A DNA stretch of 64,000 nucleotides. Origin: Oscillospiraceae bacterium (GTDB lineage Bacteria; Bacillota; Clostridia; Oscillospirales; Oscillospiraceae). Each line of letters opens with the position of its first letter. Position 1 is the stretch's first letter. The notes below the pieces were generated by a model. That model saw nothing but the letters and a program-made list of their open reading frames with translations, searched no databases and was not told the origin of the DNA. Made by a program: the position numbers and the translations under genes. Where the stretch lies: assembly GCA_017482385.1 (NCBI GenBank), contig JAFUNI010000021.1:62001-126000 (forward strand). Direction: 5' to 3'. Of the stretch, positions 18,671 through 39,811 are shown piece after piece.

Positions 18671-21400
18671 TTATTCGTTGTAATCGCTGATGTCGGTCTC
18701 GGGGTCGTCTTCTGCCTCGGGGTCTGCTGCGGGGGTTTCTTCCGCAGGGATCTCCTGAGCGGTGGGCTTTTTCTTCTTGACGATCACCAGTACCACAACG
18801 GCGGCAACGATAACAGCCGCAACGATGGCGATGATCAGAAGAAGATTGGCATCACCGGAAGCCACGACAGGCTCGCCGGGGGTGGTGTCGTTCTCAAAGG
18901 ACTGGACATCGCCCTTCAGATAGACCTTCACGCTTTGGCCCTCTGCAATGTTGACCTCGCCGGTCTCAATGGCATCGCAGCCGGGCTTCATGGAAAGGGT
19001 CTTGATGGTCTTTTCTTCTTTCAGGGTATCGCCCTCGTAGATGGCCGCTACCACTTCCAGCTTCTTTTCTGCATCGGTGCCGTTGAGCCAGGACAGGCGG
19101 TAAGCGGCGCTGCCTGCGGTGGACTCGTCGGCGGCCACATTTCTGCCGGTGACGGCATTATAGACTTCAAAATCCGTGGTAAGGCCGGAGGCGTACAGGG
19201 CATAGTCGTCAAACAAAACCGCCTTATCCGCATTATTGGTGAGGAACAGAATGGATGTAATGGAGCGGAAAGTGGGGCAGGGCACATTCTCCACCCGGGC
19301 GATCTCCTTGCCCTTGGCGTTCAGCAGATAGACGCTGTAGGTGAAGTAGTCGGGGTCGGAGAAGTTCATTGCCCGCTTGAGGGTGTAGGTGCCGGGCTCG
19401 ATCTTGGTCAGCTCCTTGTCTTCCACCAGCCCCTCTTCTACCACCTGGCTGTAGTAGACCTGGCCGTCCCGGACTGTGATGCCGTTGTCAAACATCTGGG
19501 TGCCTTCGGCGATATATTTCAGCAGGCTGATTTCTGCCTCGGGGGACAATCCCTCAGGAACGGTGAAACTGATCTGCCAGGTCTGCTCCTCGGCATAGGA
19601 GTCACCGGCGGTGATCTTGGTGGGGATGGTGATATTTCCGAAGCTGGCATTGCCGGAGAGAGCCAAAGCCTTGCCTTCACCGAAAGGAACGGCTTCCGCG
19701 GTATCGCCATCCTGCAAACGGGTTGCCCAGGCATAGGTCTGGGCCATCTTGCTGGTGGTCAGCTTGCCGTTTTCGTAGGCGTCAAAGTTTTCCCGGAAAG
19801 CGGGGTACTTTTCATAGCGGTCTGCATCGGAGGTCATGATGGGGGTCACATCCTTGGCAGTTTCCACCCAGTAGCCGCAGGAGCCCACATTGGGGATTTT
19901 GGCATCCTCTAAAATCTTACCGCCGGGGAAGGAAATGGTCTGACCCTTTACGGAGAAGGTGGGGTCTTTGCCCTCAACCTCAAAGGATTCCAGGGAAAGT
20001 TCATCAGTATTGGGGGTAATACGCCACAGATTCCGGCCACCGCAGTACATACCGGACACCACATACTCTGCATTCCAGTACTGGGGCAGCTCGATGGGCA
20101 TTCTGTCGGCGTAGCCTGCCACATCCGTGAGGGCGGCCAGGATGGCGTTCATAGTCTCCTGGGTAGCAATGTACTTGGGAGAGGTGTAGCTGGCCTCCTT
20201 GCCCTCTTCCTTGTATTCGGGCATATAGGTGTAGGACAGGAAGGGCTCGGGATCGAATAAGCCTAAGTGGTACAGAAGCTCGGTGTAATAGGGGGTATAG
20301 GCCGCAGAGGATTCCGTCTTGCCGCCGTAAACATAGGAGGTGATCCAGGGTGCTACCTGCTTGGAGGAGGCATACATCTGCCGGGTGAAGTTCACATCGG
20401 TAATGAAGTTATTGAAGGCAGAGGCCTCAAAGACAGCTTCATTATAGGAGCTATACTTCTTGTTGTCTTCAAAAAAGGATTTGCCGGGGCGGACATAGTA
20501 GTAGCTGTAAGAGGAGGCAGTGCCCACCTTGAGGGAGCTGCCGCCGGTTTGGGGTACGCCGTCAGCATTGCTCTCGTAGAGCCGGAACCAGGGCTTGGAA
20601 TCTGTGGACTGGTAGTCGGACAGGGAGGCATCGGGGTAGTATTTTTTCAGCGGCTCGTAGCACCATTTGTTGGCGTAGTTGTTCAAATGGATGCGGATAA
20701 CCGTGTCCCAGATGCTCCGGGCCAGGTCATACTCCGCGCCCTTGTTCACATTGCAGATGCCGTAGATCTCAGAGATGATACCGCTGGGGTTGGGCCAGAA
20801 GGGGAAGCCGCGCTCTTCCAGCATAGGGCGGATCTGGGTGGCGTAGCGGGGGTCGTTCACAATATCCGCATAGATATTGGGATTTTCCTGGTAGTGGTCA
20901 GAGTAGAGATACCAGGAGCCCATACCGATGTACTCGGTATCCAGCACCAAACCGTCTAAGGGGCATTTGATCTCAGATAGCTTTTTGATGATGGCGGTGA
21001 CCAGGTCGGTCATCTGATCCACGCCGGCATCCAAAAACAGAACATTCTGCGGATCAAGGCGCAGAGCCTTGCCGGGTGCCCAAAGATGCCAATAGCGGGC
21101 GCCTGCGGGACGGGCGTCCATTGTCTCCTTCAGAGCCTGGGCAAAGGCGGTCACATCCTCGTCGGTATACTCGCCGTAGACCACAGGCTTTTTGGCATAG
21201 GTGATCTTGACCTTTTCGCCGTCAACAACGCTGAAGTTGGAGGTCGCCAGACCGTCCAAATGGGGGTATTTTTCTTCGTCAAAGTCAGACCAGCCCAAAG
21301 CGTAGAAGGGTTGCTTTTCCACTTCCGCCCTGGCGGGCTGAGTCAGCGCAACAGGCACCAGCAGAGCCAATGCCAAAAGCAAAGCAAACAGTTTTTTCAT
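18671..21400 (-). CDS. Surface protein paralogue P1: TIM-barrel-like, jelly-roll-like and Ig-like domains, membrane anchored
   Basis: 909 residues. The signal peptide ends near QPARA (residue 25). Residues 30-470 form a domain whose spacing of strands (FYALGWSDF, RYWHLWAP, LDGLVLDTE, DYQSTDS, APWITSY) resembles a TIM-barrel hydrolase; D154 and E156 are acid candidates. A beta-rich piece (PTFSVKGQTISFPGGKIL) and a jelly-roll-like domain (about 540-743) follow, then an Ig-like module to about 832. The linker is short, then one membrane helix (about 851-874), KKKK and an acidic tail. It is the only one of six with a short stalk. No known family recognised. Promoter of class 1. Function, substrate and enzyme activity are inference. 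Confidence 0.8.
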   Translation of the reverse strand: MKKLFALLLALALLVPVALTQPARAEVEKQPFYALGWSDFDEEKYPHLDGLATSNFSVVDGEKVKITYAKKPVVYGEYTDEDVTAFAQALKETMDARPAGARYWHLWAPGKALRLDPQNVLFLDAGVDQMTDLVTAIIKKLSEIKCPLDGLVLDTEYIGMGSWYLYSDHYQENPNIYADIVNDPRYATQIRPMLEERGFPFWPNPSGIISEIYGICNVNKGAEYDLARSIWDTVIRIHLNNYANKWCYEPLKKYYPDASLSDYQSTDSKPWFRLYESNADGVPQTGGSSLKVGTASSYSYYYVRPGKSFFEDNKKYSSYNEAVFEASAFNNFITDVNFTRQMYASSKQVAPWITSYVYGGKTESSAAYTPYYTELLYHLGLFDPEPFLSYTYMPEYKEEGKEASYTSPKYIATQETMNAILAALTDVAGYADRMPIELPQYWNAEYVVSGMYCGGRNLWRITPNTDELSLESFEVEGKDPTFSVKGQTISFPGGKILEDAKIPNVGSCGYWVETAKDVTPIMTSDADRYEKYPAFRENFDAYENGKLTTSKMAQTYAWATRLQDGDTAEAVPFGEGKALALSGNASFGNITIPTKITAGDSYAEEQTWQISFTVPEGLSPEAEISLLKYIAEGTQMFDNGITVRDGQVYYSQVVEEGLVEDKELTKIEPGTYTLKRAMNFSDPDYFTYSVYLLNAKGKEIARVENVPCPTFRSITSILFLTNNADKAVLFDDYALYASGLTTDFEVYNAVTGRNVAADESTAGSAAYRLSWLNGTDAEKKLEVVAAIYEGDTLKEEKTIKTLSMKPGCDAIETGEVNIAEGQSVKVYLKGDVQSFENDTTPGEPVVASGDANLLLIIAIVAAVIVAAVVVLVIVKKKKPTAQEIPAEETPAADPEAEDDPETDISDYNE

Positions 21401-21429
21401 TTTGTACCTCCTGAACAGGAATTTTTACC

Positions 21430-21458
21430 ATTATAACACAAGAATGGATAATGGACAA
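21430..21458 (-). promoter_or_regulatory. Promoter of P1 (class 1)
   Basis: On the minus strand TTGTCC (21453-21458), a 17-base spacer and TATAAT (21430-21435). The -35 lies inside an AATGGATAATGG-type repeat arm. The leader has TCCTGTTCAGGAGG over the ribosome site, shared with P2 and nearly with P4. Confidence 0.65.
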
Positions 21459-21475
21459 TGGATAATGGAGAATTA
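21439..21475. repeat. Low-complexity arm (AATGGATAATGG type)
   Basis: AAGAATGGATAATGGACAAT and further units upstream of P1. The same arm type occurs upstream of P2 and P4 and overlaps their -35 boxes. Confidence 0.7.
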
Positions 21476-21526
21476 TTTTGAAAATCCAACCGCCAAGGGA
21501 ACTTCCTCTTCACTTTTCAATGAAAA

Positions 21527-21578: not shown

Positions 21579-21579
21579 T

Positions 21580-24500
21580 TTATGCCTCGGGGTCATCGTT
21601 TAATTCTTCGATTTCCTCGGGTTCGTCGGCAGGGGCTTCCGCAGGGACTGCGGGCTTTTTCTTCTTCAGCAGGAAGAAGGTCACACCGCCGGCAACAGCC
21701 AGCACTGCCACAGCCGCAATCACAATGATCAGAACCGTGTTATCCTTGGTTTCGCCCGTGGGTACATCGGTGGATTCGGTGGGGGCTAAGGTCTCACCAG
21801 AAGCCAAAGTTACGCCGGGTGCCAAAGTCTCACCGGGAGCCAGGGTTTCCTCGGGTGCCAAGGTCTCACCGGGTGCCAAGGTCTGGCCGGGCAGGGTAGC
21901 CTTGGTGGCCTTGGAGGCTCTGGTGGGTGTCTTGGTGGCTCTTGTGGGTTTGGTGAGGGGATTTTTGGTAGCCGATGTAGCCTTGGAGCCGGAGGCGGTA
22001 GCCTTGGTTGCGGAATCATTCCCCTCTTGTCCCTTGGTGGGCTGGGGCTTGGTTTCATCCTCGTTAGGCTGGTTGGCCGTTGTATCTTGGTGGGCGCCGC
22101 CCTTCAAATAGACAAGGACACTTTGGCCTGCTTTGACTTCCACAACACCGGTCTCCACGCCGTCATAGCCGGGCTTCATGGTCAGGGTCTTCACAGTCTT
22201 TTCAGACTTCAGGCTGCCGCCCTCATAAATGGCGGCTACCACGGTAGCGGTCTTGGTGGTGTTGGTGCCGTTGAGCCAGGACAGGCGGTAAGCGGTGCTC
22301 TTGGCGCGTGCCTGCTCCGCTTCGTCGCCTAAGATATTTCTGCCGCTGCCGGCATCGTAAAGCTCAAAGTCAGTGGCAAGGCCGGAGGGGTAGAGCTTAT
22401 AATTGTCCACAGCTACAGCCTTGTCAGCACTCTTGGTGGAGAAGCTGATGGACTGGATGGCGGTGAAGCTGGGGGTGGAAATATTCTTGGTGTTGGTGAT
22501 CTCCTTGCCCTTGCTGTCCAGCAGGTACAGGTCGTAGGTGAAGTTATTGGAATTGCCAAAGTTCATCACCCGCTTGACGGTATAAGTACCGGGTTTGATA
22601 TCTGTTAGCACCTGATAGTGCATACTGCCGTCCTGGGACTCACCGAAGTAAAGCTTGCCGCCCTTGATCATGATACCGCCGTCCGTGCCGTTTTTGGCAC
22701 TATCACCTGCATACTTGAGCAGATAAATTTCCGCGTTGGCGGACAGGCCGCTGGGCAGGGTAAAGGTTATTTCCCAGGTCTGCTCCTTGGCATAGGAGTC
22801 GCCGGCGGTGATCTTGGCGGGAACATCCACATTCTGCAGGCGGGCATCGCCGGTGAGGGTCAGAGCCTTGTTGGCAATGCTGGCAGAGCCGCTAAACTCC
22901 CAGGCATAGGAGGGGTTCAGCTTTTCAGCGGTCAGTGCGCCGTTTGCGTAGCTGTCAAAGTTCTCCAGGAAGGAGGGGTACTTGGCATAGCGGTCGGCAT
23001 CGGAAGTCATAACAGGGGTCACATTGGCGGGGGTCTCCACCCAGTAGCCGGTGGAGCCCACATTGGGGATGGTGGCATCCTTCAGAATCTTGCCCTTGGG
23101 GAAGGTGATAGTCTGACCCTTTACGGAGAAGGTGGGGTCAGAATCCTTTACCTTAAAGGCCTTTAGAGAAACCTCGTCGGTGTTGGGGGTGATGCGCCAG
23201 ATATTCCGACCGTTTGCGTACATACCGGACACCACATACTCTGCGTTCCAGTACTGGGGCATTTCAATGGGCTTGCGGTCTGAGAAGCCCGCCACCTCGG
23301 TAAGGGCGGCCATAACCGCATTCATAGTCTGGCCGGTTTTTTCCCAGCCTTCGTCGCCGCCCACTTCGCTCTTGGTATTGTAGTGCAGGAAGGGCTCGGG
23401 GTCGAACATACCCAAATGGTACAAAAGCTCAGAATAGTAGGCAGTGCTGCCCCATCTGGAAACACCGTCACGGGCATACAGGTAAGAGGCAGTCCAGGGA
23501 GCTACCTGCTTGGTTTCGGTGGAATTATACATATGCCGGGTGAAATTCACCTCGTACAGGAGGGAGTTGAAGGGGGATTGCTCATAGACACCGTCATTGT
23601 AGGAGGCGTACTGCTTGTTGTCGGCATATTCGGTGGCATTGGGGTGGTTAAAGTAGTAGCTGTAGGTGGAGGCAGTACCCACCCGGATGGAGTTACCGCC
23701 GGACAGGGCCACGCCGTCGTCACCCACACCGGCGATCTTCTCCCAGGACTTGGAGTCGTGGGACTGATAGTCGGAACAGGATGCATCGGGGTAGTAGGTT
23801 TTCAGCGGTTCATAGAGCCACTGGTTTGCGTATCTGTTCAGGTGGACACGCATAACGGTGTTCCAAATGCTGTAGGCCCGGTTATACCGATCCACATCCC
23901 TGGACTTCTTCTCAGGGCACATGGTGAAGATCTCAGACTCATGGGGGTTGTTGGGGTCGGCGGGCCAGAAGGGGAAGCCGTATTCTTCCAGCAAGGGGCG
24001 GATCAGCTTCTTGTACTTGGGGTTCTTGACGATCTGGGCGTAGAGATTCTTGTTCTTTTTGTAGTACCAGTCAAAGCTGTGATTGCCGCTGTTGCCCCAA
24101 AGATACCAGGCACCCAAAGCGAAGCACTCGGTATCGATGACTACGCCGTCCAAGGGGCAATCTATTTCCTTCATCTTTTTCAGCAGCGCAGAGGTCAGAT
24201 CCTCCATCTGCTCAACGCCGTGCTCTAAGAACAGAACATCATCGGGGGCAAGCTTCAGGATCCTCAGCGGGCCGAAAAGGTGCCAGTAGCGTTTGCCGGC
24301 GGGGCGGGCTTCCAGTTCTTTCTTCATAGCGTTGGCCAGCTTGGTCACATCCGCATCGGTGTAGCTGCCGTATTGCATAGTAGCGCCGCCATAGTTCAGT
24401 CTTGCATATTCACCAATATTGGTGAAGTTGGTGGTCAGAAGGCCGTCCAGATAGGGGTATTTGGTTTCGTCAAAGTCCGTCCAGCTCAGCGCATAGAAGG

Positions 24501-24591
24501 GTTCTTTTTCTACAGCCGCGCCGGCAGGCTGTACCAAAGCCATAGGGAGAACCAGAGCCAATGCCAAAAGCAAAGCAAACAGTTTTTTCAT
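21580..24591 (-). CDS. Surface protein paralogue P2: TIM-barrel-like, jelly-roll-like and Ig-like domains, hexapeptide stalk, membrane anchored
   Basis: 1003 residues. Signal peptide ends near QPAGA. The N-terminal domain (residues 30-475) is like P1, with LDGVVIDTE (D153, E155), SDYQSHDSKSW and APWTASYLYA. A jelly-roll-like domain (545-740) and an Ig-like domain (740-830) follow. The stalk (about 834-944) is Thr/Ala/Lys-rich, then six units of a TLAPGE-type hexapeptide. One membrane helix, KKKK and an acidic tail (PADEPEEIEELNDDPEA) end the protein. P2 and P3 are closest to each other. There is no LPxTG motif before the helix, so anchoring is by the helix. Family not recognised. Confidence 0.8.
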   Translation of the reverse strand: MKKLFALLLALALVLPMALVQPAGAAVEKEPFYALSWTDFDETKYPYLDGLLTTNFTNIGEYARLNYGGATMQYGSYTDADVTKLANAMKKELEARPAGKRYWHLFGPLRILKLAPDDVLFLEHGVEQMEDLTSALLKKMKEIDCPLDGVVIDTECFALGAWYLWGNSGNHSFDWYYKKNKNLYAQIVKNPKYKKLIRPLLEEYGFPFWPADPNNPHESEIFTMCPEKKSRDVDRYNRAYSIWNTVMRVHLNRYANQWLYEPLKTYYPDASCSDYQSHDSKSWEKIAGVGDDGVALSGGNSIRVGTASTYSYYFNHPNATEYADNKQYASYNDGVYEQSPFNSLLYEVNFTRHMYNSTETKQVAPWTASYLYARDGVSRWGSTAYYSELLYHLGMFDPEPFLHYNTKSEVGGDEGWEKTGQTMNAVMAALTEVAGFSDRKPIEMPQYWNAEYVVSGMYANGRNIWRITPNTDEVSLKAFKVKDSDPTFSVKGQTITFPKGKILKDATIPNVGSTGYWVETPANVTPVMTSDADRYAKYPSFLENFDSYANGALTAEKLNPSYAWEFSGSASIANKALTLTGDARLQNVDVPAKITAGDSYAKEQTWEITFTLPSGLSANAEIYLLKYAGDSAKNGTDGGIMIKGGKLYFGESQDGSMHYQVLTDIKPGTYTVKRVMNFGNSNNFTYDLYLLDSKGKEITNTKNISTPSFTAIQSISFSTKSADKAVAVDNYKLYPSGLATDFELYDAGSGRNILGDEAEQARAKSTAYRLSWLNGTNTTKTATVVAAIYEGGSLKSEKTVKTLTMKPGYDGVETGVVEVKAGQSVLVYLKGGAHQDTTANQPNEDETKPQPTKGQEGNDSATKATASGSKATSATKNPLTKPTRATKTPTRASKATKATLPGQTLAPGETLAPEETLAPGETLAPGVTLASGETLAPTESTDVPTGETKDNTVLIIVIAAVAVLAVAGGVTFFLLKKKKPAVPAEAPADEPEEIEELNDDPEA
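21774..21890. repeat. Coding 18-bp minisatellite in the P2 stalk
   Basis: Six units of 18 bases encoding TLAPGE, TLAPEE, TLAPGE, TLAPGV, TLASGE, TLAPTE. P3 holds the same number with different variants, so length and sequence can drift by slippage. Confidence 0.85.
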
Positions 24592-24620
24592 TTTTTACCT
24601 CCTGAACAGGATTTTTTACC

Positions 24621-24649
24621 ATTATAACATAAGAATGGATAATGGACAA
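24621..24649 (-). promoter_or_regulatory. Promoter of P2 (class 1)
   Basis: On the minus strand TTGTCC (24644-24649), a 17-base spacer and TATAAT (24621-24626), with the AATGGATAATGG arm over the -35 and TCCTGTTCAGGAGG before the ATG. Confidence 0.65.
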
Positions 24650-24690
24650 TGGATAATTTTTTTATATCTCCTATGTGCCGCCGGGGCATT

Positions 24691-24767: not shown

Positions 24768-24782
24768 GGCATTCGCAGAGAC

Positions 24783-24818: not shown

Positions 24819-27800
24819 TTATGCCTCGGGGTCGTTGTTCAGTTCGGGGGCATCCTCGGGTTCGTCGGCAGGGGCTTCGGTGGGTGCTGCGGGCTTTTTC
24901 TTCTTCAGCAGGAAGAAGGTCACACCGCCGGCAACAGCCAGCGCTGCCACAGCCGCGATCACAATGATCAGAACCGTGTTATCCTTGGTTTCATCGATGG
25001 GGACATCGGTGGATTCGGTGGGGGCTAAGGTCTCGCCGGGCGCTAAGGTCTCATCGGGCGCTAAGGTCTCACCGGGTGCCAGGGTTTCCTCGGGTGCCAA
25101 GGTCTCACCGGGTGCTAGGGTCTGGCCGGGCTGGGTAGCCTTTGTGGCCTTGGAGGCTCTGGTGGGTGTCTTGGTGGCTCTTGTGGGTTTGGTGAGGGGA
25201 TCCTTGGTAGCCGTTGTTGCCTTGGAGCCGGAGGTGGTAGCCTTGGTTGCGGAAGCATTCCCCTCTTGTCCCTTGGTGGGCTGGGGCTTGGTTTCATCCT
25301 CGTTATTGCCGGGCTGGTTGGGCGTTGTATCCTGGTGGGCGCCGCCCTTCAAATAGACAAGGACACTTTGGCCTGCTTTGACTTCCACAACACCGGTCTC
25401 CACGCCGTCATAGCCGGGCTTCATGGTCAGGGTCTTGATGGCTTTTTCAGACTTCAGGCTGCCGCCCTCATAAATGGCGGCTACCACGGTAGCGGTCTTT
25501 TCGGCAGAGGTGCCGTTGAGCCAGGACAGACGGTAAGCGGTGCTCTTGGCGCGTACCTGCTCCGCTTCGTCGCCTAAGATATTTCTGCCGCTGCCGGCAT
25601 CGTAGAGCTCAAAGTCGGTGGCAAGGCCGGAGGGGTAGAGCTTATAATTGTCCAGGGAAACAGCCTTACCCGCTTTCTTGGTGGAGAAGTTAATGCCGGT
25701 GATGGTGGTGAAGGAAGAAGCGGCAATGCTCTTGGCATTGGTGATCTCCTTGCCCTTGCTGTCCAGCAGATAAAGATCATAGGAGGCTGTGTCTGCGCCG
25801 TTGAAATCCATCACCCGCTTGAGGGTGTAAGTACCGGGGGTGATGGCGGTCAGTTCCTGGTATTCCACACTGTCGGATACCAAATCGCTGTAGTACACCT
25901 TGCCGCCCTTGATCTTGATGCCGCCGTCGGTGGCGCCGCCCTTGCCCTCATACTGGAGCAGAATGATCTCTGCATCGGCGGAAAGACCGCTGGGCAGGGT
26001 AAAGGTGATCTCCCAGGTCTGATCCTTGGCATAGGAGTCACCGGCGGTGATCTTAGCGGGGATCTCCACATTCCGGACTTTGGTGTCGCCGGACAGGGAC
26101 AGAGCCTTGTTGGCAATGCTGGCAGAGCCGGTGATCTGCCAGGCATAGGAGGGGTTCATCTTTTCAGCGGTCAAAGTGCCGTTTGCGTAGCTGTCGAAGT
26201 TCTCTAAGAAGGAGGGGTACTTGGCATAACGGTCTGCATCGGAAGTCATAACGGGGTTTACACCCGCCTTGGTTTCCACCCAGTAACCGCAGGAGCCCAC
26301 ATTGGGAATGGTGGCTTCCTTCAAGATCTTGCCGCCGGGGAAGGAAATGGTCTGACCCTTTACGGAGAAGGTGGGGTCAGAATCCTTTACCTTGAAGGCT
26401 TTCAGAGAAATTTCGTCGGTATTGGGGGTGATACGCCAGATATTGCGGCCACCGGCATACATACCGGACACCGTATACTCTGCGTTCCAGTACTGAGGAA
26501 GCTCGATGGGCTTGCGGTCAGCGTAGCCTGCCACCTGGTTCAGCGCTTCCATAATCGCGTTTATCGTCTGCTGGGTCTTATCCCAGCCTTCCTCGCCGCC
26601 CACTTCGGCTTTCGTATTGTAGAGCAGGAAGGGCTCCGGGTCGAACATACCCAAGTGATACCAAAGCTCAGAATAGTAGGGAGTGCCGTTCCACCGGCCG
26701 GCCTTGTCCCGGCTGTACAGATACGATGCCATCCAGGGGGCGATCTGCTTGCTCTCGGTGGAGGCATACATATGCCGGGAGAAGTTCACCTCGTACAGGA
26801 AGCAGTTAAAGGGGGATTGCTCAAAAACAGCATCGTTGTAGGAGGCATACTTGTCGTGGGCTGTAAAGAAGTCCTGGGAGGGATGGTTGAAGTAGTAGCT
26901 GTAGGTGGACACATCACCCACACAGACGGAGTTGCCGCCGGACAGGGCAATGCCGCCGTCGTCGGTAACGCCTGCCAGCTTATACCAGGACTTGGAGGAC
27001 AAGGACTGGTAGTCGGAGCAGGTTGCGTCGGGGTAGTACTGCTTCAGCGGCTCGTAGGCCCATTCGGTGATATACCGGTTCAGATGGACACGCATAACAG
27101 TGCCCCAAATGCTGGTGGCACGGCTATGCTCCGGTGCTTTCTTGATGTCGGATTCGTAGCAGATATAGAAGATCTCGGACTTATGGCCGGAGGGATTGGG
27201 ATAGAAGGGGAAGCCGTACTCCTCAAGCAGGGGACGGATCAGCTTCTTGTACTTGGGATTCTTGACGATCTGGGCATAGAGGTTCTTGTTTTTACCGGCG
27301 TACCAGTCAAAGCTGTGGTTGCCGCTGTTGGTCCAAAGATACCAGGAGCCCAAAGCATAGATCTCCGTGTCGATAATCACACCGTCCAGAGGGCAACCTA
27401 TCTCTGCCATCTTCTTATAGAGGTCGGTGAAGATTTCCTTCAGCTGCTCGACGCCGTGCTCCAAAAACAGAACATCATCGGGGGCAAGCTTCAGAATCTG
27501 GGCAGGCTTGAAAATGTGCCAGTAGCGGGAGCCTGCGGGACGGGGTTCCAACCTTGCTTTCAAGGCTTGGGCCATCTTGGTCACATCTGCGTCGGTGTAG
27601 CTGCCGTATTGCATTTTTGCGCCATCGAGGGACAGGACCGCATATTCACCGATATTGCTGAAGGTGGTGGTGACAAGACCGTTCATGTAGGGGTATTTCA
27701 CTTCGTCCGAGTCCGTCCAGCTCAGGGTATAGAAGGGCTCTTTGGTAACGGCTGCGCTGACAGGCATTACCAAAACCATAGGGATCAGTGTGGCCAAAAT

Positions 27801-27827
27801 CAGCAGCAGAGCGAGGGCTTTTTTCAT
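24819..27827 (-). CDS. Surface protein paralogue P3: TIM-barrel-like, jelly-roll-like and Ig-like domains, hexapeptide stalk, membrane anchored
   Basis: 1002 residues. Signal peptide ends near MPVSA. The layout matches P2: N-terminal domain with LDGVIIDTE (D153, E155), CSDYQSLSSKSW and APWMASYLYS; jelly-roll-like domain (545-739); Ig-like domain to 829; stalk with TLAPGE-type hexapeptides (about 915-950); membrane helix, KKKK, acidic tail ending ELNNDPEA. DNA is nearly identical to P2 through the Ig-like domain and stalk, which suggests recent duplication or gene conversion. Unlike P2 its promoter belongs to class 2 (27888-27917), shared with P5 and P6. Family not recognised. Confidence 0.8.
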   Translation of the reverse strand: MKKALALLLILATLIPMVLVMPVSAAVTKEPFYTLSWTDSDEVKYPYMNGLVTTTFSNIGEYAVLSLDGAKMQYGSYTDADVTKMAQALKARLEPRPAGSRYWHIFKPAQILKLAPDDVLFLEHGVEQLKEIFTDLYKKMAEIGCPLDGVIIDTEIYALGSWYLWTNSGNHSFDWYAGKNKNLYAQIVKNPKYKKLIRPLLEEYGFPFYPNPSGHKSEIFYICYESDIKKAPEHSRATSIWGTVMRVHLNRYITEWAYEPLKQYYPDATCSDYQSLSSKSWYKLAGVTDDGGIALSGGNSVCVGDVSTYSYYFNHPSQDFFTAHDKYASYNDAVFEQSPFNCFLYEVNFSRHMYASTESKQIAPWMASYLYSRDKAGRWNGTPYYSELWYHLGMFDPEPFLLYNTKAEVGGEEGWDKTQQTINAIMEALNQVAGYADRKPIELPQYWNAEYTVSGMYAGGRNIWRITPNTDEISLKAFKVKDSDPTFSVKGQTISFPGGKILKEATIPNVGSCGYWVETKAGVNPVMTSDADRYAKYPSFLENFDSYANGTLTAEKMNPSYAWQITGSASIANKALSLSGDTKVRNVEIPAKITAGDSYAKDQTWEITFTLPSGLSADAEIILLQYEGKGGATDGGIKIKGGKVYYSDLVSDSVEYQELTAITPGTYTLKRVMDFNGADTASYDLYLLDSKGKEITNAKSIAASSFTTITGINFSTKKAGKAVSLDNYKLYPSGLATDFELYDAGSGRNILGDEAEQVRAKSTAYRLSWLNGTSAEKTATVVAAIYEGGSLKSEKAIKTLTMKPGYDGVETGVVEVKAGQSVLVYLKGGAHQDTTPNQPGNNEDETKPQPTKGQEGNASATKATTSGSKATTATKDPLTKPTRATKTPTRASKATKATQPGQTLAPGETLAPEETLAPGETLAPDETLAPGETLAPTESTDVPIDETKDNTVLIIVIAAVAALAVAGGVTFFLLKKKKPAAPTEAPADEPEDAPELNNDPEA
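25012..25130. repeat. Coding 18-bp minisatellite in the P3 stalk
   Basis: Six 18-base units encoding TLAPGE, TLAPEE, TLAPGE, TLAPDE, TLAPGE, TLAPTE. Confidence 0.85.
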
Positions 27828-30935: not shown

Positions 30936-30965
30936 TTTTTTACCTCCTGAGCAGGAATTTTATCC

Positions 30966-30994
30966 ATTATAACATAAGAATGGATAATTGACAA
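30966..30994 (-). promoter_or_regulatory. Promoter of P4 (class 1)
   Basis: On the minus strand TTGTCA (30989-30994), a 17-base spacer and TATAAT (30966-30971). The leader has TCCTGCTCAGGAGG before the ATG, one base from the P1 and P2 leaders. Confidence 0.65.
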
Positions 30995-31009
30995 TTCATA
31001 ATTTTGTTG

Positions 31010-31153: not shown

Positions 31154-31203
31154 TAAGCTGTAAATTTATGGGCATTGGCCCAATACAACGGAGGAAATGT
31201 AAA

Positions 31204-32202
31204 ATGTTTAATGCTATGATCGAAACCTTGAAGGCAAATCCCCGGAAGATCGTCTTCACCGAGGGCCACGATGCCCGTATCTTAGAGGCTACCGCACGCC
31301 TGGTGGAGGGCGGCTTCCTGACCCCCATCTTGGTGGGCAATGTGGAGGAAGTCAAGGCCAATGCTGCCAAGGGCGGCTACAACATCGAGGGCGTTGAGAT
31401 CCTGGATCCTGCTACTTACGAAGGCATGGATGCCATGGTCGAGAAGATGGTTGAGCTCCGCAAGGGCAAGATGTCCGCTGAGGAGTGCAAGGCTGCGCTT
31501 TCCAAGGGCAACTACTTCGGCACCATGCTGGTAAAGATGGGCTACGCTGACGCTCTGCTGGGCGGCGCTACCTACTCCACCGCCGATACCGTCCGTCCCG
31601 CTCTGCAGCTGGTGAAGACCAAGAAGGGCGCAAACCTGGTTTCTTCCTGCTTCATTATGGTTCGCGGCGAAGAGAAGCTGGCTATGGGCGACTGCGCTAT
31701 CAACTTAAGCTATGAGGATTCTGTGGACAAGGAAGGCAATGTGACCGTTTCCGCTGCCCGGAAGCTGGCTGAGGTTGCTATCGAGACCGCCAACACAGCC
31801 AAGGTCTTCGGCATCGATCCCAAGGTGGCTATGCTGAGCTTCTCCACCAACGGCTCCGGCAAGGGCGGTACTGTGAAGCTCTCTAACGAGGCTACCAAGG
31901 TCGCTAAGGAGCTGGCTCCCGATCTGATGATCGACGGCGAGATGCAGTTCGACGCAGCGGTTGCTCCCGAGGTCGGCCAGCTGAAGTTCCCCGGCTCTCC
32001 TGTTGCAGGCTATGCCAACACCTTTATCTTCCCCACCATCGAGGCCGGCAACATCGGCTACAAGATCGCACAGCGTCTGGGCGGCTTTGAGGCTTACGGC
32101 CCCATCCTGCAGGGCCTGGCTGCTCCCATCAACGACCTGTCCCGTGGCTGCAATGCCGACGAGGTCTACAAGATGGCTATCATCACCTGCGCAATGGTTT
32201 GA
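31204..32202 (+). CDS. pta: Phosphate acetyltransferase
   Basis: 332 residues; makes acetyl phosphate from acetyl-CoA, the step before acetate kinase in acetate and ATP production. The protein is full length for the short form. Family motifs VFTEGHDARILEATARL, LSFSTNGSGKG and GEMQFDAAVAPEV are visible. The ATG at 31204 has CGGAGGAAA at good spacing, which I preferred to upstream ATGs. Its base composition and lack of signal peptide set it apart from the surface-protein genes on both sides. ackA is not adjacent. Confidence 0.95.
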   Translation: MFNAMIETLKANPRKIVFTEGHDARILEATARLVEGGFLTPILVGNVEEVKANAAKGGYNIEGVEILDPATYEGMDAMVEKMVELRKGKMSAEECKAALSKGNYFGTMLVKMGYADALLGGATYSTADTVRPALQLVKTKKGANLVSSCFIMVRGEEKLAMGDCAINLSYEDSVDKEGNVTVSAARKLAEVAIETANTAKVFGIDPKVAMLSFSTNGSGKGGTVKLSNEATKVAKELAPDLMIDGEMQFDAAVAPEVGQLKFPGSPVAGYANTFIFPTIEAGNIGYKIAQRLGGFEAYGPILQGLAAPINDLSRGCNADEVYKMAIITCAMV

Positions 32203-32628: not shown

Positions 32629-35600
32629 ATGAAAAAAGCACTTGTTATGCTCCTGGTTTTGGCAATGCTGGTTCCCATGCTTTTGGTGATGCCCGCAAGC
32701 GCTGAAGCTGCTACACCTGACAAGCCCTTCTATACTATGGGCTGGTCTGAATTTGATGAAAAGAGCTATCCGTATCTGGACGGTCTGTATCAGATAAACT
32801 GGACCGCACTTGGCGGCAGCGTTAAGCTCAACAATGTCGTCTATGGCAGAGATGATTTCGATGCGCAGATAGACCAATTGGCGCAAACCTTGAAAAAGGC
32901 AATGGATAAGCGCCCTGCCGGCGCCCGTTATATCCATACCTTCGGCCCGGCCAAGGTTTACAGAATCGCGCCCGAGAACGGCATTTTTATGGATTACGCA
33001 GTCGAGCAGATGGTCGCGATCATGGATGCCCTTATGAAGAAGTATAAGGAGATCGGCGGCCAGATCGACGGCATCGTGGTGGACGTGGAGTTTACCGGCA
33101 CCAGCTGCTACTATCTGTTTGACTCTCCTTCCAATGAGTACCAGGACAACACCCTGGTTTCCAACCCCGATCTGCTGCGTGATATCGTCAAGGATAAGCG
33201 CTATAAGACCGAGATCCGTCCTCTGCTGGAGGAGTGGGGCTTCATCTTCTACGATGCAGGCGATCCTGTGAAGCAGGCATCCTACACCGAGCTGTTCTCC
33301 GTTACCAAGAACGCCGGCTCCAAGTATGCCCGTTCCCGTAATGTTTGGAACACCGTTTCCCGTATCCACCTGAATCAGTATGTGACCAAGTGGGCTTATG
33401 ATACTGCGGTCAAGTACTTCCCCGATATCAATGTTAACGACTATCAGTCTGCGGATACGGCTACCTGGCTGAAGATGACCGCCACCACCGACGACGGTAC
33501 CGAGATGAACGGCGGTAACTCCATCAAGGCAGGTAATACCTCTACTTACAGCTGGTACTACGGCCAGCCCAACGCCAGCATGTACGATGGCATCAAGACA
33601 TATACGGGCTACAACGGCGCTTACCTGCCCAAGGAGCCCTTCACCCAGCTGCTGTACTACGTGAACTTCGGCAGATATATTTACGAGTCCACCGATACCA
33701 AGAAGATCGCCCCCTGGATCACCTACTATGACTACGGCGACACCAGCCATACGAGTACGACCAGGATCTCCAATACCCCCTACTACACCGAGCAGCTGTA
33801 TCACCTGGGTATGCTGGATCCTCAGCCCTTCCTGGGCTACTGCTATGTGGGCGACGGCATCTTCAAGGACGGCAGAGAAAACTCTACCCACTACAAGGAA
33901 ATCCAGCAGGTGATGAACGAGGCTATGGCTGAGCTGACCCGTGTGGCTGGCTACTCTGACAGAAAGCCTCTCGTGAGCACCATGGACTGGAACAGCCAGT
34001 ACATTCTGTCCGGTATGTACACCGGCGGCCGCAATCTGTGGCGTATCACCCCCAATACCAATGCGATCACCATGGGCGAGTTCCTGGTTGATAAGGAGGT
34101 TCCCACCTTCTATGTGGACGGCAAGACCGTCACCTTCCCCGGCGGTAAGATCATTGAAGACAGCACCATCTCCATTGTGGGCTCCAGCGGCTACTGGGTG
34201 GAGACTGCCAAGGATGTTGTGCCCGTGGTCACCACTGAGGCAGAGCACTATGAGTTCTACCCCTCTTTCCTGTACGATTTCGAGGAGTATGCTTCCGGTG
34301 CCTTCGACTACAATACCTCCAAGCCCAAGAACGCCTGGGGCTTCACCTGGAGCGCTGCCGGCGATGTGAAGGGCCAGAGCAATATTCTGAACATCGACGG
34401 CAATAACAAGCTGGCTATCATCGGCAACTCCAAGAACTGGGTCAAGGAGCTGCCCACCAATGTCACCGCAGGCGACAGCTTCGCCGAGGATCAGACCTGG
34501 GAGCTGACGGTTACCGTTCCCGAGGGTCTGAGTGCGGATGCCCAGATCGATATTCTTACCTACAACGGCAACAAGCAGGAGCTGACCGACGGCGGCTTTA
34601 TGATCAAGGACTATAAGCTCTACTACGCCACCGGCAAGAACGATGCTGAAGGAAATCCCATCTATGAGGAAATGATGGAGGTTAAGGGCGGTTCTACTTA
34701 CGGCTTCAAGCGTATTATGAACTTCCACCACGAGAACGCCTTCTACTGCACCTATGCCGTTACCACCGGCAGCGGCAGAACCTTGAAGTCCGTTGAGCAG
34801 ATCCCCTGCCCCAGCTTCAACTACATCACCCAGATCGGCTTCGCCGTTACCGGCGCTAACAAGGCTGTTTACGTTGACGATTTCAAGGTCTTCCTGTGCG
34901 GCGTAACCGCTGACTTCAGCGTTTACGACAAGCGGACCGGTCAGGACGCCGAGGTTGGCGCACTGAGAGACCGCTCCACCGCTTACCGTCTGTCCTGGCT
35001 CAATGCCTCCGGTGAGGACCATACCGCTACCATTAAGGCCGACATCACCGAGGGCGGCAAGACCACTACCACCACCCTGCACGAAGTGGCTATCGAACCC
35101 GGCAAGGACGGCATCATCACCGGCTTTGTGGATCTGAAGGAAGGCCAGACCGTTAAGGTCTATATGGAGACCTCTGTGGTAACTCCCGTGAACCCCTTCG
35201 AGGCTCCCGAAGAGGCAGGTCCTCTGGTGGACGCCACATTTACCGAGGGCGGCATCAAGGAAGTGCCCGATGCTCTGAAGGCAGCAGGCCTGGATACCGT
35301 TGAAAAGATCAAGGCAGCCCTGGAGGGCAAGCTTTTAGAAGCTGACAGCAATGTGGAAGCATTTATCCACTATACCGTGGAGATCAAGAAGGAAGACATC
35401 CCCAAGCACGGCAAGATGACCGTGATCATGCCTTACCCCGAGGGCACCGATGCCAACTACACCTTCTATGCAGCCCAGCTGTTCACCGCCGATGACTACA
35501 ACAAGGAACTCGGCAGCGTGGAGGTCGCAACTGTGGCCAACACTGCCGAAGGCATTCAGTTTACGGTGTACGGCGCATCTCCCATCGCCATTGGCTGGAT

Positions 35601-35985
35601 CGCTCCCGAGGAAGTGGAAGTGGACGATGGCTTGATCCCCATGCCTCCTACCGACAGCAGACCCGCTCCCACCGCTGTGAAGGTACAGCGGCCCACCGAG
35701 GCTCCTGAGACTGAGGAGACCGAGGAGCCCACCGAGGAGACCGAGTACATCGAGGATACCGAGCCCACTGAGGAGCCCACCGAGGCACCCACCGAAACCA
35801 CTGCTCCTGCAGTTGTAGAGGATGAGGGCGGCGTGAACATCTGGCTGATCATTGTGATCGCCGTTGTGGTCTTGGCCGGCGCCGGCGCTGCAGTCTTCTT
35901 CCTGCTGAAGAAGAAAAAGGCAGCTCCCGCAGCAGAGGAAATCGAGGATATCGAAGAATCCGCTGAGGAAAAGACCGAAGAGTAA
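32629..35985 (+). CDS. Surface protein paralogue P5, with extra C-terminal domain
   Basis: 1118 residues. Signal peptide ends near MPASA. The N-terminal domain has LDG- and VDVE-type residues (IDGIVVDVEF, D152, E154), NDYQSADTATW and APWITYYDY. Jelly-roll-like domain about 550-767, Ig-like domain to 857, then a domain absent from P1-P4 (about 862-997: DATFTEGGIKEVPDALKA, GKMTVIMPYPEGT, IGWIAPEE). The stalk is Glu/Thr/Pro-rich. One membrane helix (about 1068-1092), KKKK and an acidic tail (EEIEDIEESAEEKTEE) end it. Start ATG at 32629 follows TTGAAAGGAG. Class 2 promoter. Family not recognised. Confidence 0.8.
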   Translation: MKKALVMLLVLAMLVPMLLVMPASAEAATPDKPFYTMGWSEFDEKSYPYLDGLYQINWTALGGSVKLNNVVYGRDDFDAQIDQLAQTLKKAMDKRPAGARYIHTFGPAKVYRIAPENGIFMDYAVEQMVAIMDALMKKYKEIGGQIDGIVVDVEFTGTSCYYLFDSPSNEYQDNTLVSNPDLLRDIVKDKRYKTEIRPLLEEWGFIFYDAGDPVKQASYTELFSVTKNAGSKYARSRNVWNTVSRIHLNQYVTKWAYDTAVKYFPDINVNDYQSADTATWLKMTATTDDGTEMNGGNSIKAGNTSTYSWYYGQPNASMYDGIKTYTGYNGAYLPKEPFTQLLYYVNFGRYIYESTDTKKIAPWITYYDYGDTSHTSTTRISNTPYYTEQLYHLGMLDPQPFLGYCYVGDGIFKDGRENSTHYKEIQQVMNEAMAELTRVAGYSDRKPLVSTMDWNSQYILSGMYTGGRNLWRITPNTNAITMGEFLVDKEVPTFYVDGKTVTFPGGKIIEDSTISIVGSSGYWVETAKDVVPVVTTEAEHYEFYPSFLYDFEEYASGAFDYNTSKPKNAWGFTWSAAGDVKGQSNILNIDGNNKLAIIGNSKNWVKELPTNVTAGDSFAEDQTWELTVTVPEGLSADAQIDILTYNGNKQELTDGGFMIKDYKLYYATGKNDAEGNPIYEEMMEVKGGSTYGFKRIMNFHHENAFYCTYAVTTGSGRTLKSVEQIPCPSFNYITQIGFAVTGANKAVYVDDFKVFLCGVTADFSVYDKRTGQDAEVGALRDRSTAYRLSWLNASGEDHTATIKADITEGGKTTTTTLHEVAIEPGKDGIITGFVDLKEGQTVKVYMETSVVTPVNPFEAPEEAGPLVDATFTEGGIKEVPDALKAAGLDTVEKIKAALEGKLLEADSNVEAFIHYTVEIKKEDIPKHGKMTVIMPYPEGTDANYTFYAAQLFTADDYNKELGSVEVATVANTAEGIQFTVYGASPIAIGWIAPEEVEVDDGLIPMPPTDSRPAPTAVKVQRPTEAPETEETEEPTEETEYIEDTEPTEEPTEAPTETTAPAVVEDEGGVNIWLIIVIAVVVLAGAGAAVFFLLKKKKAAPAAEEIEDIEESAEEKTEE

Positions 35986-36007
35986 TAACAATGCTTAATG
36001 CATAATG

Positions 36008-36039
36008 AAGGGAACGACCCTTGGGTCGTTCCCTTTTTT
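36008..36039 (+). terminator. Terminator of P5
   Basis: AAGGGAACGACCC, loop TT, GGGTCGTTCCCTT and a T-run. A short R2 repeat (AATGCTTAATGCATAATG) sits between the stop and the hairpin. Confidence 0.85.
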
Positions 36040-36040
36040 A

Positions 36041-36140: not shown

Positions 36141-36141
36141 T

Positions 36142-36469: not shown

Positions 36470-39400
36470 ATGAAGAAAGTACTCGCTCTACTGCTAATTG
36501 TGGCTATGCTGATCCCTGCAGGGCTTAGTGTGCCCGCAAAGGCCGCAGAAGCCGAAAAGCTGCCCTTCTATCTGGTAGCTTGGACGGACTTCGATGAAAC
36601 CAAATACCCCTACTTAAACGGTTTCATCACCCCTAACTTCTCCAACCGCGGCGAAAATGCATTTCTGTCCTACGGCGGCGTCGGTTTGGAATACAGCAAG
36701 TATACCGATGCGGATGTGACCGCTATGGCCCAAGCGCTGAAGAAGACCTTGGAGGCCCGGGTCGAGGGCAGCCGCTATCTCCACTTCTTCGGTCCCGGCA
36801 AGCTGCTCCGCCTGGCGCCCGAGAACGCCCTGTTTATGGACTTCTATGTTGGCCAGATGGCTGAGATCGTCGATGCCCTTATGAAGAAGCTGAAGGAGAT
36901 CGGCGCACCTGTGGATGGCGCAGTGGTGGATACTGAGTACATCGGTTTGTCTACCTACTATCTGGTGGATACTGACAGCGATTTTGAAAACCTGGTTTCT
37001 AACCCCAAGCTGCTGCAGAATATCGTGAAGGATAAGCGCTACAAGGAAAAAATCCGGCCCATGCTGGAGGATTACGGCTTTATCTTCTACGATGCAGGCG
37101 ATCCTGCCAAGCAGGCTGCTTACACAGAGCTCTACTCCATCACCAAGGGCGCCGGCGCCAAGTACGAAAAGTCCCGTTTGGTCTGGAATACCGTTATGCG
37201 TATCCACCTGAACCGGTACGTGGACGAATGGTGCACTATCCCTGTGACAAGATATTTCCCCAATGCCAATGTGTCTGACTATCAGTCCATCGATGGCAAG
37301 ACCTGGATGGGTCTGAATGCGGTTGACGACTTCGGCGCGGTGATCACCGGCGGTAACACCCACAAGGTGGGTAACACCTCCACCTACAGCTACTACTACA
37401 CCCGTCCCGAGCCCAGCGCTTTTACGAACCTTACCACGGTCCCCGGCTTTAACGAAACCTACTACCAGGCAGAGCCCTTCACCGGCCTGCTGTACGACAT
37501 CAACTTCACCCGGTATCTGTATGAATCCACCGATACCAAGCGGGTCAGCCCCTGGACCTCCAGTTACTACTATACATATACCGGCGAAAAGAAGGCCTCT
37601 GTGGCTATGACCCCCTACTATGCCGATCTGATCTACCACCTGGGTATGTTCAACCCCCGTCCCTTCCTGTTCTACAACACAAAGGCTGAAACAGAGAAGC
37701 TTGGCGGCGCCGACGGCTGGGATAAGACCGGTCAGATCCTGAACAGCCTCCTCTCTTCTCTGAACGAGCTGGCAGGCTATTCTGACCGTCAGACCATCTC
37801 CACACCCCTGAACTGGAACAGCAAGTACGTGCTGACCGGTATATACGCAAACGGCCGCAACCTGTGGCGTATCACCCCCAATCTCAACGTGATCTCCCGC
37901 GGTGAGTTCCTGGTGGATGAGGAAGTTCCCACCTTCTCTGTCAACGGTGAGACCGTGACCTTCCCCGGCGGTAAGATCCTCCCCGAGGCTGAGATCCCCA
38001 TCAGTGGCTCTGTTGGTTTCTGGGTGGAAACTGCCAAGGATGTAATGCCCGTCGTGACTGCCGAGGAGGACCGCTATGAGGCTTATCCCTCTTTGCAGTA
38101 CGATTTCGAGAACTACGCATCCGGCGCATTCGACTACAATACCTCCCTGCCCACCAACGCCTGGGGCTTCACCTGGAGCAAGACCGCAAGCGGTGTCAAG
38201 GGCGAGAGCAATATCGTTGTGATTGACGGCAACAAGAAGCTGTCCATCATCGGTAACTCCAAGAACTGGCTCAAGACCCTGCCCGGCAACATCACCGCCG
38301 GTGATACCTTCGCTGAGGATCAGGCTTGGGAGCTCACCGTGACCATTCCCGAGGGCTTGAGCAAGGATGCTACCATCACCCTGCTGAACTATACCGGCGC
38401 CAAGCAAGAGCTGGAAGATGGCGGCTTTATGATAAAGGACGGCAAGGTGCACTATGCTACCGGCGAGTACGACGCTGACGAGATGCCCATCTACAAGGAA
38501 CTGATGGCGGTGGAAGGAAACACCACCTATACCTTCGCCCGTTATGTGGACTTCAACGATAAGGATGCCTTTACCACTACCTTTGCGGTTAAGAATAAGA
38601 ACGGCAGAACCCTGGAGACCGTTGAGCATGTTCCCGCACCCAGCTTTGAATCCATCGATACCGTAGGCTTTGCTGTTGCAGAGGCTGACAAGGCTGTGCT
38701 GGTTGACGAGTTTAAGTTCTACCTCACCGGCGCTACTTTGGATTTCAGCCTTTACGATGAGGAGATCGGCTATAATGTGGATCTGGATGCCATAAGAGAT
38801 CGCTCCACCGCTTTCCGTCTGTCCTGGCTGAATGCTACCGGCGAGGAAGAGACCGCTGCCGTTAAGGCGGACATCACCGAGAACGGCAAGACCACCACCA
38901 CCGTGATCAAGGAGATCAAGATGCTGCCCGGTACCAACGCCATTGAGACCGGCGTGGTGGAGATCAAGGAAGGCCAGACCGTGAAGGTCTATCTGGAGTC
39001 CACTCTGAAGCCCATCGCAGCGGCTGACGAGGTTGGTCCTCTGGTGGATGCAACCTTTAACGAGGGCGGCGTCCAGAAGGTACCCAGCGCGCTGAAGGCG
39101 ATTGGTCTGGATACTGTTGAGAAGATCAAGGAGGCCTTGGAGGGCAAGCTGAAGGAAGCAAGCACCGACGGTGTGGAAGCCTTAGCTCACTATGAGATCA
39201 AGGTCAACAAGAATGACATTCCCAGAAACGGCAAAATGACCGTGATCATGCCTTACCCCGCAGGCACCAATTCCAACTACTCCTTCTATGGTGCTCAGCT
39301 GTACACCGCCAATGCCTACGGTAAGAAGGTCGGCGAGGTCGCAGCCATCAATGTGGTCAACACCGCTGAGGGTATCCAGTTTGAGGTGTTCGGCACAGCT

Positions 39401-39811
39401 CCCATTGCCATCGGCTGGAACGCTCCCGCGGAGGTCGTGGAAACGGAGCCTACCGAGGCTCCCACCAGAACGCCCAACCAGCTGGAGCGTCCCGTGGGTA
39501 CCCGGATCACCAGACCCACCGAGGCCCCCGAAATTGAGGAAACCGAGGAGCCCACCGAGGAGACCGAGTACATCGAGGATACCGAGCCCACTGAGGAGCC
39601 CACCGAGGCACCCACCGAAACCACTGCTCCGGCAGTTGTAGAGGAAGAGGGCGGTGTGAACATCTGGCTGATCGTTGTGATCGCTGCGGTTGTCCTGGCC
39701 GGTGCCGGCGCTGCTGTCTTCTTCCTGCTGAAGAAGAAAAAGGCTGCCCCCGCAGCTGCTGAGGAGATCGAGGAAATCGAAGAATCCGCTGAGGAAAAGA
39801 CCGAAGAGTAA
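36470..39811 (+). CDS. Surface protein paralogue P6, with extra C-terminal domain
   Basis: 1113 residues. Signal peptide ends near VPAKA. The predicted acid pair is present (VDGAVVDTEYIG, D154 and E156), with SDYQSIDGKTW and SPWTSSYYYT. Jelly-roll-like domain about 545-763, Ig-like domain to 848, extra domain 852-987 as in P5, Glu/Thr/Pro-rich stalk, membrane helix, KKKK and a tail almost the same as P5. The stalk, helix and tail DNA of P5 and P6 match almost base for base, unlike their N-terminal parts, so the 3' ends have been homogenised. ATG at 36470 follows TTGAAAGGAG. Family not recognised. Confidence 0.8.
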   Translation: MKKVLALLLIVAMLIPAGLSVPAKAAEAEKLPFYLVAWTDFDETKYPYLNGFITPNFSNRGENAFLSYGGVGLEYSKYTDADVTAMAQALKKTLEARVEGSRYLHFFGPGKLLRLAPENALFMDFYVGQMAEIVDALMKKLKEIGAPVDGAVVDTEYIGLSTYYLVDTDSDFENLVSNPKLLQNIVKDKRYKEKIRPMLEDYGFIFYDAGDPAKQAAYTELYSITKGAGAKYEKSRLVWNTVMRIHLNRYVDEWCTIPVTRYFPNANVSDYQSIDGKTWMGLNAVDDFGAVITGGNTHKVGNTSTYSYYYTRPEPSAFTNLTTVPGFNETYYQAEPFTGLLYDINFTRYLYESTDTKRVSPWTSSYYYTYTGEKKASVAMTPYYADLIYHLGMFNPRPFLFYNTKAETEKLGGADGWDKTGQILNSLLSSLNELAGYSDRQTISTPLNWNSKYVLTGIYANGRNLWRITPNLNVISRGEFLVDEEVPTFSVNGETVTFPGGKILPEAEIPISGSVGFWVETAKDVMPVVTAEEDRYEAYPSLQYDFENYASGAFDYNTSLPTNAWGFTWSKTASGVKGESNIVVIDGNKKLSIIGNSKNWLKTLPGNITAGDTFAEDQAWELTVTIPEGLSKDATITLLNYTGAKQELEDGGFMIKDGKVHYATGEYDADEMPIYKELMAVEGNTTYTFARYVDFNDKDAFTTTFAVKNKNGRTLETVEHVPAPSFESIDTVGFAVAEADKAVLVDEFKFYLTGATLDFSLYDEEIGYNVDLDAIRDRSTAFRLSWLNATGEEETAAVKADITENGKTTTTVIKEIKMLPGTNAIETGVVEIKEGQTVKVYLESTLKPIAAADEVGPLVDATFNEGGVQKVPSALKAIGLDTVEKIKEALEGKLKEASTDGVEALAHYEIKVNKNDIPRNGKMTVIMPYPAGTNSNYSFYGAQLYTANAYGKKVGEVAAINVVNTAEGIQFEVFGTAPIAIGWNAPAEVVETEPTEAPTRTPNQLERPVGTRITRPTEAPEIEETEEPTEETEYIEDTEPTEEPTEAPTETTAPAVVEEEGGVNIWLIVVIAAVVLAGAGAAVFFLLKKKKAAPAAAEEIEEIEESAEEKTEE

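Follow-up and report, generated by a model that had tools for sequence, protein, structure and literature searches.

Six membrane-anchored surface proteins of an Oscillospiraceae bacterium belong to a candidate new glycoside hydrolase family with one putative conserved pseudoenzyme

We analysed a window of 64,000 nucleotides (nt) from an Oscillospiraceae bacterium (assembly GCA_017482385.1, contig JAFUNI010000021.1, positions 62,001 to 126,000; coordinates below count from the first letter of the window), in which an island of six paralogous genes, w1 to w6, encodes divergent membrane-anchored extracellular proteins of 909 to 1118 amino acids (aa). The family is real, coherent and unnamed, a new family of a protein kind already known and so far found in few genomes. 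Judging from sequence, its N-terminal domain of about 490 residues (N-domain) is most likely an unnamed glycan-cleaving enzyme, a reading that we favour by a little when the chemistry of a particular Asp-x-Glu (DxE) pair is left aside. Taken more broadly, the idea that the family comprises enzymes acting on glycans appears probable to us, while the DxE chemistry, suggested by analogy with known families, is proposed tentatively. We describe the proteins as a candidate new glycoside hydrolase (GH) family, anchored at the cell surface and including one conserved pseudoenzyme. The island spans 18671-39811 (21.1 kb, 33% of the window), and an initial annotation of this DNA, which had reported six paralogues of this size, interrupted by pta alone and covering one third of the stretch, was borne out, with corrections given below. 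The main features are listed below with their strand; residues are numbered as in w2 unless a protein is named.

18671-21400, minus strand: paralogue w1, 909 aa, stalk almost absent
20933-20956, minus strand: w1 motif DGLVLDTE, from D149 to E156 of w1
21580-24591, minus strand: paralogue w2, 1003 aa, reference for residue numbering
23032-24513, minus strand: conserved N-domain of w2, residues 27-520, a putative (beta/alpha)8 barrel with a beta-rich end (alignments A3 and A6; crude secondary structure)
24127-24150, minus strand: w2 motif DGVVIDTE, D148 to E155, the part that falls in profile register with the GH18 motif
23428-23439, minus strand: YYSE of w2 with the near-invariant E388
22066-23028, minus strand: middle part of w2, residues 522-842, of which 164 profile columns match second-lineage secreted proteins
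21583-21744, minus strand: hydrophobic stretch of w2 (putative membrane helix) and KKKK tail
24819-27827, minus strand: paralogue w3, 1002 aa
27363-27386, minus strand: w3 motif
28047-30935, minus strand: paralogue w4, 962 aa, putative pseudoenzyme under purifying selection
30492-30515, minus strand: w4 motif DGAMMSML, with Asp and Glu replaced by Ser and Leu
32629-35985, plus strand: paralogue w5, 1118 aa, with an extra stretch
33067-33090, plus strand: w5 motif DGIVVDVE
36470-39811, plus strand: paralogue w6, 1113 aa, with an extra stretch
36914-36937, plus strand: w6 motif DGAVVDTE (the E388 position is Asp in w6)

We surveyed residue conservation in 50 open reading frames (ORFs) and fragments of the family, with gaps set aside and close orthologues included. 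Results showed that D148 is kept in 47 of 48 sequences (one Glu), D153 in 45 of 48 (two Ser, one Thr) and E155 in 46 of 48 (two Leu). Outside this motif, Y193 and R198 (both 47/47), E220 (47/48), Y275 (46/47), Y385 (45/46), E388 (44/46, the rest being two Asp), H392 (46/46) and R466 (47/47) are also near-invariant or invariant. As the motif is retained in distant members, which read DGVVCDFE, DAVVCDHE, DYVIDDLE, DYVIDDNE, DGIYTDNE or DGIYSDDE, D-x-x-x-x-D-x-E can be taken as the signature of the family. The Asp/Glu pair from which, together with the order of strands, a glycoside hydrolase-like enzyme had first been suggested thus exists and hardly varies in the family at large; among the window proteins, w4 has neither acid.

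In the survey only w4 (LDGAMMSML) and its orthologue L018:346-3504 are without both D153 and E155. These two proteins are 96% identical, with a ratio of nonsynonymous to synonymous substitution rates (dN/dS) of 0.18 (0.17 in the N-domain). The other orthologous pairs (w1, w2, w3, w6, the copy on contig C27, and w5 against a copy from water buffalo) gave 0.13-0.33 over the whole length and 0.08-0.46 in the N-domain, and two paralogue pairs gave 0.34 (w2-w3) and 0.50 (w5-w6). Set against the range of 0.13-0.33, the value of w4 points to constraint like that on its paralogues and no sign of decay, and we regard w4 as a candidate conserved pseudoenzyme. Moreover, w1, w2, w3, w4 and w6 look like real genes, since each has a close counterpart in a related metagenome-assembled genome (MAG) with a whole-length dN/dS of 0.15-0.33, those of w2 and w3 being cut by contig ends. 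A distant copy, L025:777-3731, carries Thr in place of D153 and keeps E155, possibly an intermediate state.

That the family had been called unrecognised agrees with our searches, in which no Pfam or NCBIfam model matched its own domains at the curated cut-off and no PDB sequence did so at E 0.001. Individual Pfam scans of the 24 N-domains in alignment A3, with E up to 10, brought up nine families, the best at E 0.03, and none was a glycosidase. The genome that carries the window, taken as a whole, gave no match to the Pfam GH18 model PF00704, and no description of the family was found in the titles and opening abstract lines of open-licence PMC literature. Several weak matches were taken as chance: DUF3438 at E 0.033; two models, FliL and TrbK, that hit the membrane helix (best E 0.00026, far under the cut-off); syntaxin chains of the PDB on the same helix (best E 0.036); and CD1107-like in w5 and w6, whose acidic stalk and helix it hit at E 0.00054 and 0.0014, under the cut-off. 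GH114 was considered for its DGxxxDT-like motif, but among 98 genomes of the order a single one had a match, weak and under the cut-off, too little for a profile.

The proposed chemistry comes from a comparison of the family profile with one built from 31 GH18 domains of the order. In its single 60-column local alignment, the GH18 motif has its last Asp opposite D153, its Glu opposite E155 and its first Asp opposite D148. In GH18 the Glu is the acid, and the acetamido group is held jointly by an Asp and a Tyr (PMC9323625). GH25 enzymes bear a DXE pair (PMC7954357), and oxazolinium formation is ascribed to GH18, GH20, GH25 and GH123 (PMC13080975). From this register and this chemistry we propose a DxE-like action on N-acetylhexosamine glycans. 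One strand of a putative (beta/alpha)8 barrel would end in D-x-x-x-x-D-x-E, E155 would be the general acid, and D153 together with the conserved Y275 would steady the N-acetyl group of the sugar, which would attack its own glycosidic bond. The C-terminal helix and the lysine-rich tail would hold the enzyme outside the membrane on its stalk, the paralogues might split different linkages among them, and w4 might retain only a binding function. What the analysis shows is the family itself and its occurrence, the near-invariant residues, anchor-like sequence features, a glycan-related gene context at other loci and the constraint on w4; the barrel, hydrolysis as such, N-acetylhexosamine-containing glycans as the substrate class, the way in which the paralogues share the work and the part played by the middle domains are inferred.

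The likeness to GH18 consists of the D....DxE motif, the preceding helix and the following LRxxL within the same weak alignment, and a conserved Tyr further on; lectin-like relatives without the acids are also described for GH18 (PMC3662789). On the other hand, there is no Pfam GH18 match, the second Asp of the motif is absent, the profile probability is just 7.5%, and about 120 residues separate D153 from Y275 in the window family. By Pfam match and motif the family is outside GH18. We also know of no GH18 counterpart of the beta-rich end with WRITP and of the middle domains. GH25 shares the Asp-x-Glu pair and N-acetylhexosamine substrates (PMC7954357), but no Pfam or PDB-sequence match links it to the family. 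The same difference holds for GH56, a DxE enzyme on N-acetylhexosamine substrates. For the fold, a crude propensity profile of 46 sequences gave mixed strands and helices and then a helix-free part from about residue 450, weakly compatible with a barrel followed by a beta domain; the profile misses the motif strand (strand 4 in a GH18-type barrel) and is no evidence for a barrel by itself. The TIM barrel of the initial annotation is compatible with this profile and with the weak motif register on GH18, and its jelly-roll-like and Ig-like domains are putative as folds.

Two clusters of a second lineage argue for a role in glycan use. Locus L036 holds a response regulator with an AraC domain, a histidine kinase, the family gene, a BPD_transp_1 permease, an SLH protein, a 903-aa protein and a second permease. 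On L062, which belongs to the genome of locus L035, the series goes on: two proteins that look secreted are followed by a solute-binding protein (SBP_bac_1/DUF3502) and a second family gene, after which come a 1141-aa protein and, judged by eye, an oxidoreductase-like gene. As far as L063, a locus of the L036 genome, extends, its frames have the order of those of L062 and similar sizes. A sugar importer and a regulator in one cluster with a family gene were found in the second lineage only, in genome G1155 and, by frame sizes and order, in G1154. DUF3502 proteins occur in all four family-bearing genomes of this lineage. In three of them, G1162 with its family cluster included, one lies on the contig of a family gene and no more than about 5 kb away, whereas G1161 carries its DUF3502 genes on contigs other than those of the family. 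Among known systems this arrangement comes closest to the polysaccharide importer operons of the YesMN/LplBC type of Firmicutes, which it resembles by its AraC-domain response regulator, His_kinase, two BPD_transp_1 permeases and SBP_bac_1 protein with DUF3502. Loci L074 and L075 each hold several family genes.

In the genome of the window, the gene directly after the copy on contig C1 is glucuronoyl-esterase-like (PF22244, E 1.2e-27), and upstream of that copy are a GDSL-esterase gene and a gene that by eye is GDPD-like. The copy on C7 lies between two AraC regulators, beyond which come PIG-L deacetylase, PfkB and mannitol-dehydrogenase-like genes and a gene that NCBIfam calls nagB-like at a score below the cut-off. 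The second lineage and these two other loci thus support the surface-glycan system that had been suggested for the island, to which the island's own flanks lend no support. Two kinds of neighbouring protein were noted besides. The 1141-aa protein of the importer operon (L062:1493-4918, minus strand) has no match in Pfam, NCBIfam or PDB sequences and is possibly another unnamed glycan enzyme. Proteins of 903-975 aa, alike by eye, stand beside family genes in three second-lineage clusters (L036:12446-15157, L074:8907-11705, L075:9739-12666); the one of L036 has no Pfam match.

Several results weigh against an enzyme of this kind, its chemistry or its role. PF00704 matched 0 of the 24 N-domains at E up to 10, a result qualified by the HMMER filters, which discard most weak matches. 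The alignment with GH18 (probability 7.5%, pairwise P 0.0047) is below significance, and a comparison of GH18 with GH5, whose catalytic strands differ, gave P 0.019 in the same set-up, so that such values are not rare; the family against GH5, the negative control, gave P 0.18. With match columns only, the GH18 score was 28.4 (probability 6.1%) and that of the reversed profile 21.0; in favour of the match, none of 150 column shuffles was as good (best 23.7), column shuffling being a lenient null. The GH18 motif DxxDxDxE is incomplete, with D148, D153 and E155 kept and the second Asp not conserved. Regarding context, the flanks of the copies on C27 and C14 held no clear glycan genes (by eye), and the island is flanked by housekeeping genes with no cluster of sugar importer and regulator. 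DUF3502 was found in none of the eight family-bearing genomes of the genus of the window, its own genome among them (completeness 65-95%), and therefore the importer context does not transfer directly to that genus, whose proteins differ from the importer-linked ones also in being membrane-anchored fusions, often in tandem. Finally, E388, E220, R198, H392 and R466 match E155 in conservation, which makes another acid pair possible.

This last point is what speaks for a glycan enzyme of other chemistry, in which E388 or E220 would work with E155 in a retaining or inverting hydrolase, or the protein would be a lyase, on a barrel of another clan. We consider this rather unlikely. Against it, by the crude profile E388 lies well past a predicted strand (365-370) and before the next one and need not be at a strand end, a weak argument. 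An explanation of another sort is that the proteins are non-catalytic adhesins that bind mucin or fibre and hold the cell, the acids binding sugar or a metal ion. The stalked, membrane-anchored design with paralogues, the SLH-like or free secreted relatives, the maintenance of w4 without the acids and the lectin-like relatives of GH18 (PMC3662789) would all suit it. However, the acids are near-invariant although distant members are just about 25-30% identical, and acid loss in the 48 scored frames amounts to one orthologous pair and a single D-to-T change, which fits catalysis better; we judge adhesins alone to be unlikely. Enzymes of peptidoglycan or of the cell's own wall, serving envelope upkeep and not nutrition, are improbable: DxE also marks GH25 muramidases (PMC7954357) and the island is near oriC genes and beside a sigma-factor gene, but the patchy presence in the genus speaks against upkeep and the second lineage links the family to sugar-importer genes. 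The other-chemistry and peptidoglycan explanations both overlap with the enzyme part of the reading that we prefer, a glycan-cleaving N-domain.

In the architecture of the six proteins, a signal-peptide-like start (by eye), a hydrophobic stretch that is a putative membrane helix, and the KKKK tail behind it are present in 6/6, as first described. The conserved segments said to be shared by all were so in part: WRITPN occurs in 6/6, but WSDFDE is exact in one, RYWH is in three (RYIH or RYLH in the other three), and DGxxxDTE and SDYQS are in four each, with w5 having DVE and w4 having SML and so neither acid. Of the stalk w1 has hardly anything, and w5 and w6, both on the plus strand, have about 130 extra residues ahead of theirs. 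Over the main lineage, 31 of 31 complete C-termini (including one broken frame, L020:1651-3147) show a strongly hydrophobic 19-residue stretch followed by 2-5 Lys/Arg within ten residues. Such a stretch is found in 0 of 10 second-lineage C-termini, and SLH-like C-termini (by eye) are seen in 2 of 3 family genes of L074 and in one of L075.

Part of the middle of the window proteins aligns over 164 columns with secreted proteins beside the second-lineage family genes (hhalign probability 97.2%). This relationship emerged by profile against profile; one profile of the middle domain against sequences did not detect the separate second-lineage proteins with E up to 10. We infer a fusion in the window proteins of enzyme-like and binding-like parts which in the second lineage are encoded apart. 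The middle domains probably bind glycan.

To follow the distribution of the family, one genome per species was scanned in 84,980 species with two short peptide patterns, which gave 21 loci in nine MAGs named Oscillospiraceae or Clostridia. The stated source of seven of them is the caecum, colon or rectum of roe deer, sheep, goat or water buffalo, and no source is stated for SIG460 and SIG442. The host bacterium probably lives in the gut of plant-eating animals, the nearest named relative of the window being a roe-deer MAG; the seven RGIG names presumably come from a single ruminant-gut catalogue, and the host range may reflect sampling. Genome searches, which score just a few candidates per genome, gave strong matches in 8 of the 136 genomes of the genus, own genome included. 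In 6 more genomes of the genus only weak short matches were seen (E 7.6e-5 to 9.5e-4), which were not counted as members. The own genome was the sole strong match among the genomes sampled from the family (300), order (394), class (391) and phylum (398), samples that overlap and that missed the second lineage and are thus no proof of absence; weak matches that lay by the end of the signal peptide, or were short for another reason, were excluded in 5 of 6 matching genomes of the family (E 1.7e-4 to 6.4e-4) and in 1 of 2 of the phylum (E 1.9e-4). The second lineage was reached through L035 and L036, and strong relatives are present in 4 of 20 genomes of the taxonomic family of G1155, which is other than that of the window as 20 genomes were returned for 150 requested. 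Spread by phage or plasmid is unsupported, since the viral contigs, plasmids and phages searched gave no match.

Tandem arrays of at least two adjacent copies occur in other species as well (L018, L020, L022, L023, L025, L028, L030, L032, L074 and L075). In a tree of 46 N-domains, w1, w2, w3, w4 and w6 are each grouped with a single roe-deer MAG copy at a support of at least 100/99, and the partner of w5 is a copy of the buffalo MAG (100/100), suggesting that the duplications are older than the split of these species. The tree has a midpoint root, its long second-lineage branches may join falsely, and a broken w5-like frame of the roe-deer MAG was left out as too short. The roe-deer MAG keeps the order pta, w5-like, w6, sigma factor, rpsT and recG (by eye). 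Its w5-like frame (L020:1651-3147, plus strand) is without the start and two internal stretches of w5, the rest being 94-99% identical, by decay or by an assembly fault.

A wider proposal joins these elements: a new family of DxE neighbouring-group glycoside hydrolases on N-acetylhexosamine glycans, host mucin for example, would have passed from secreted, importer-linked enzymes to tandem, stalked and membrane-anchored ones without that importer in one hindgut genus, with the pseudoenzyme serving the active paralogues as a glycan receptor. As a whole we hold this unlikely. If true, an enzyme family would be added to the part of gut glycan breakdown that Pfam and NCBIfam miss, in hindgut bacteria known here from metagenomes alone. 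The conserved acid-less copy would be a natural test of the change from glycan enzyme to receptor beside active paralogues, and the second-lineage operon offers a route to working out the substrate.

Within the island, identity to w2 is 78% for w1, 58% for w3, 39% for w4, 43% for w5 and 44% for w6, and the sole other gene, which lies outside the surface-protein system, is the following.

31168-32202, plus strand: pta-like phosphate acetyltransferase (PTA_PTB protein, E 2.5e-107)

On one side the island is flanked by dnaA-dnaN-recF-gyrB-gyrA and on the other by a sigma-factor gene, rpsT (by eye) and recG, with small genes too; from this position it is probably close to oriC. The genome of the window (2.39 Mb, 35 contigs) has four further copies, on contigs C7, C27, C1 and C14, its search giving 12 matches, two of them pieces from the tails of w5 and w6. 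At least 2574 aa long, the copy on C14 (L016:1-7722, minus strand) runs off the contig end; more than 1,600 of its residues are beyond the shared part, with repeated segments bearing CxxC-like pairs and 'LGHTE' stretches (by eye). An 81-nt stretch at and before the start codon is common to three of the four minus-strand genes (21392-21472, 24583-24663 and 30928-31008; 86 and 89% identity to the reference copy), so that upstream regions were duplicated along with the genes. By eye, a GGGAACGACC hairpin that resembles a terminator and has a T run stands 3' of w1, w5 and w6 (18618-18668, 35990-36040 and 39816-39866), which suggests that these three genes may be separate transcripts.

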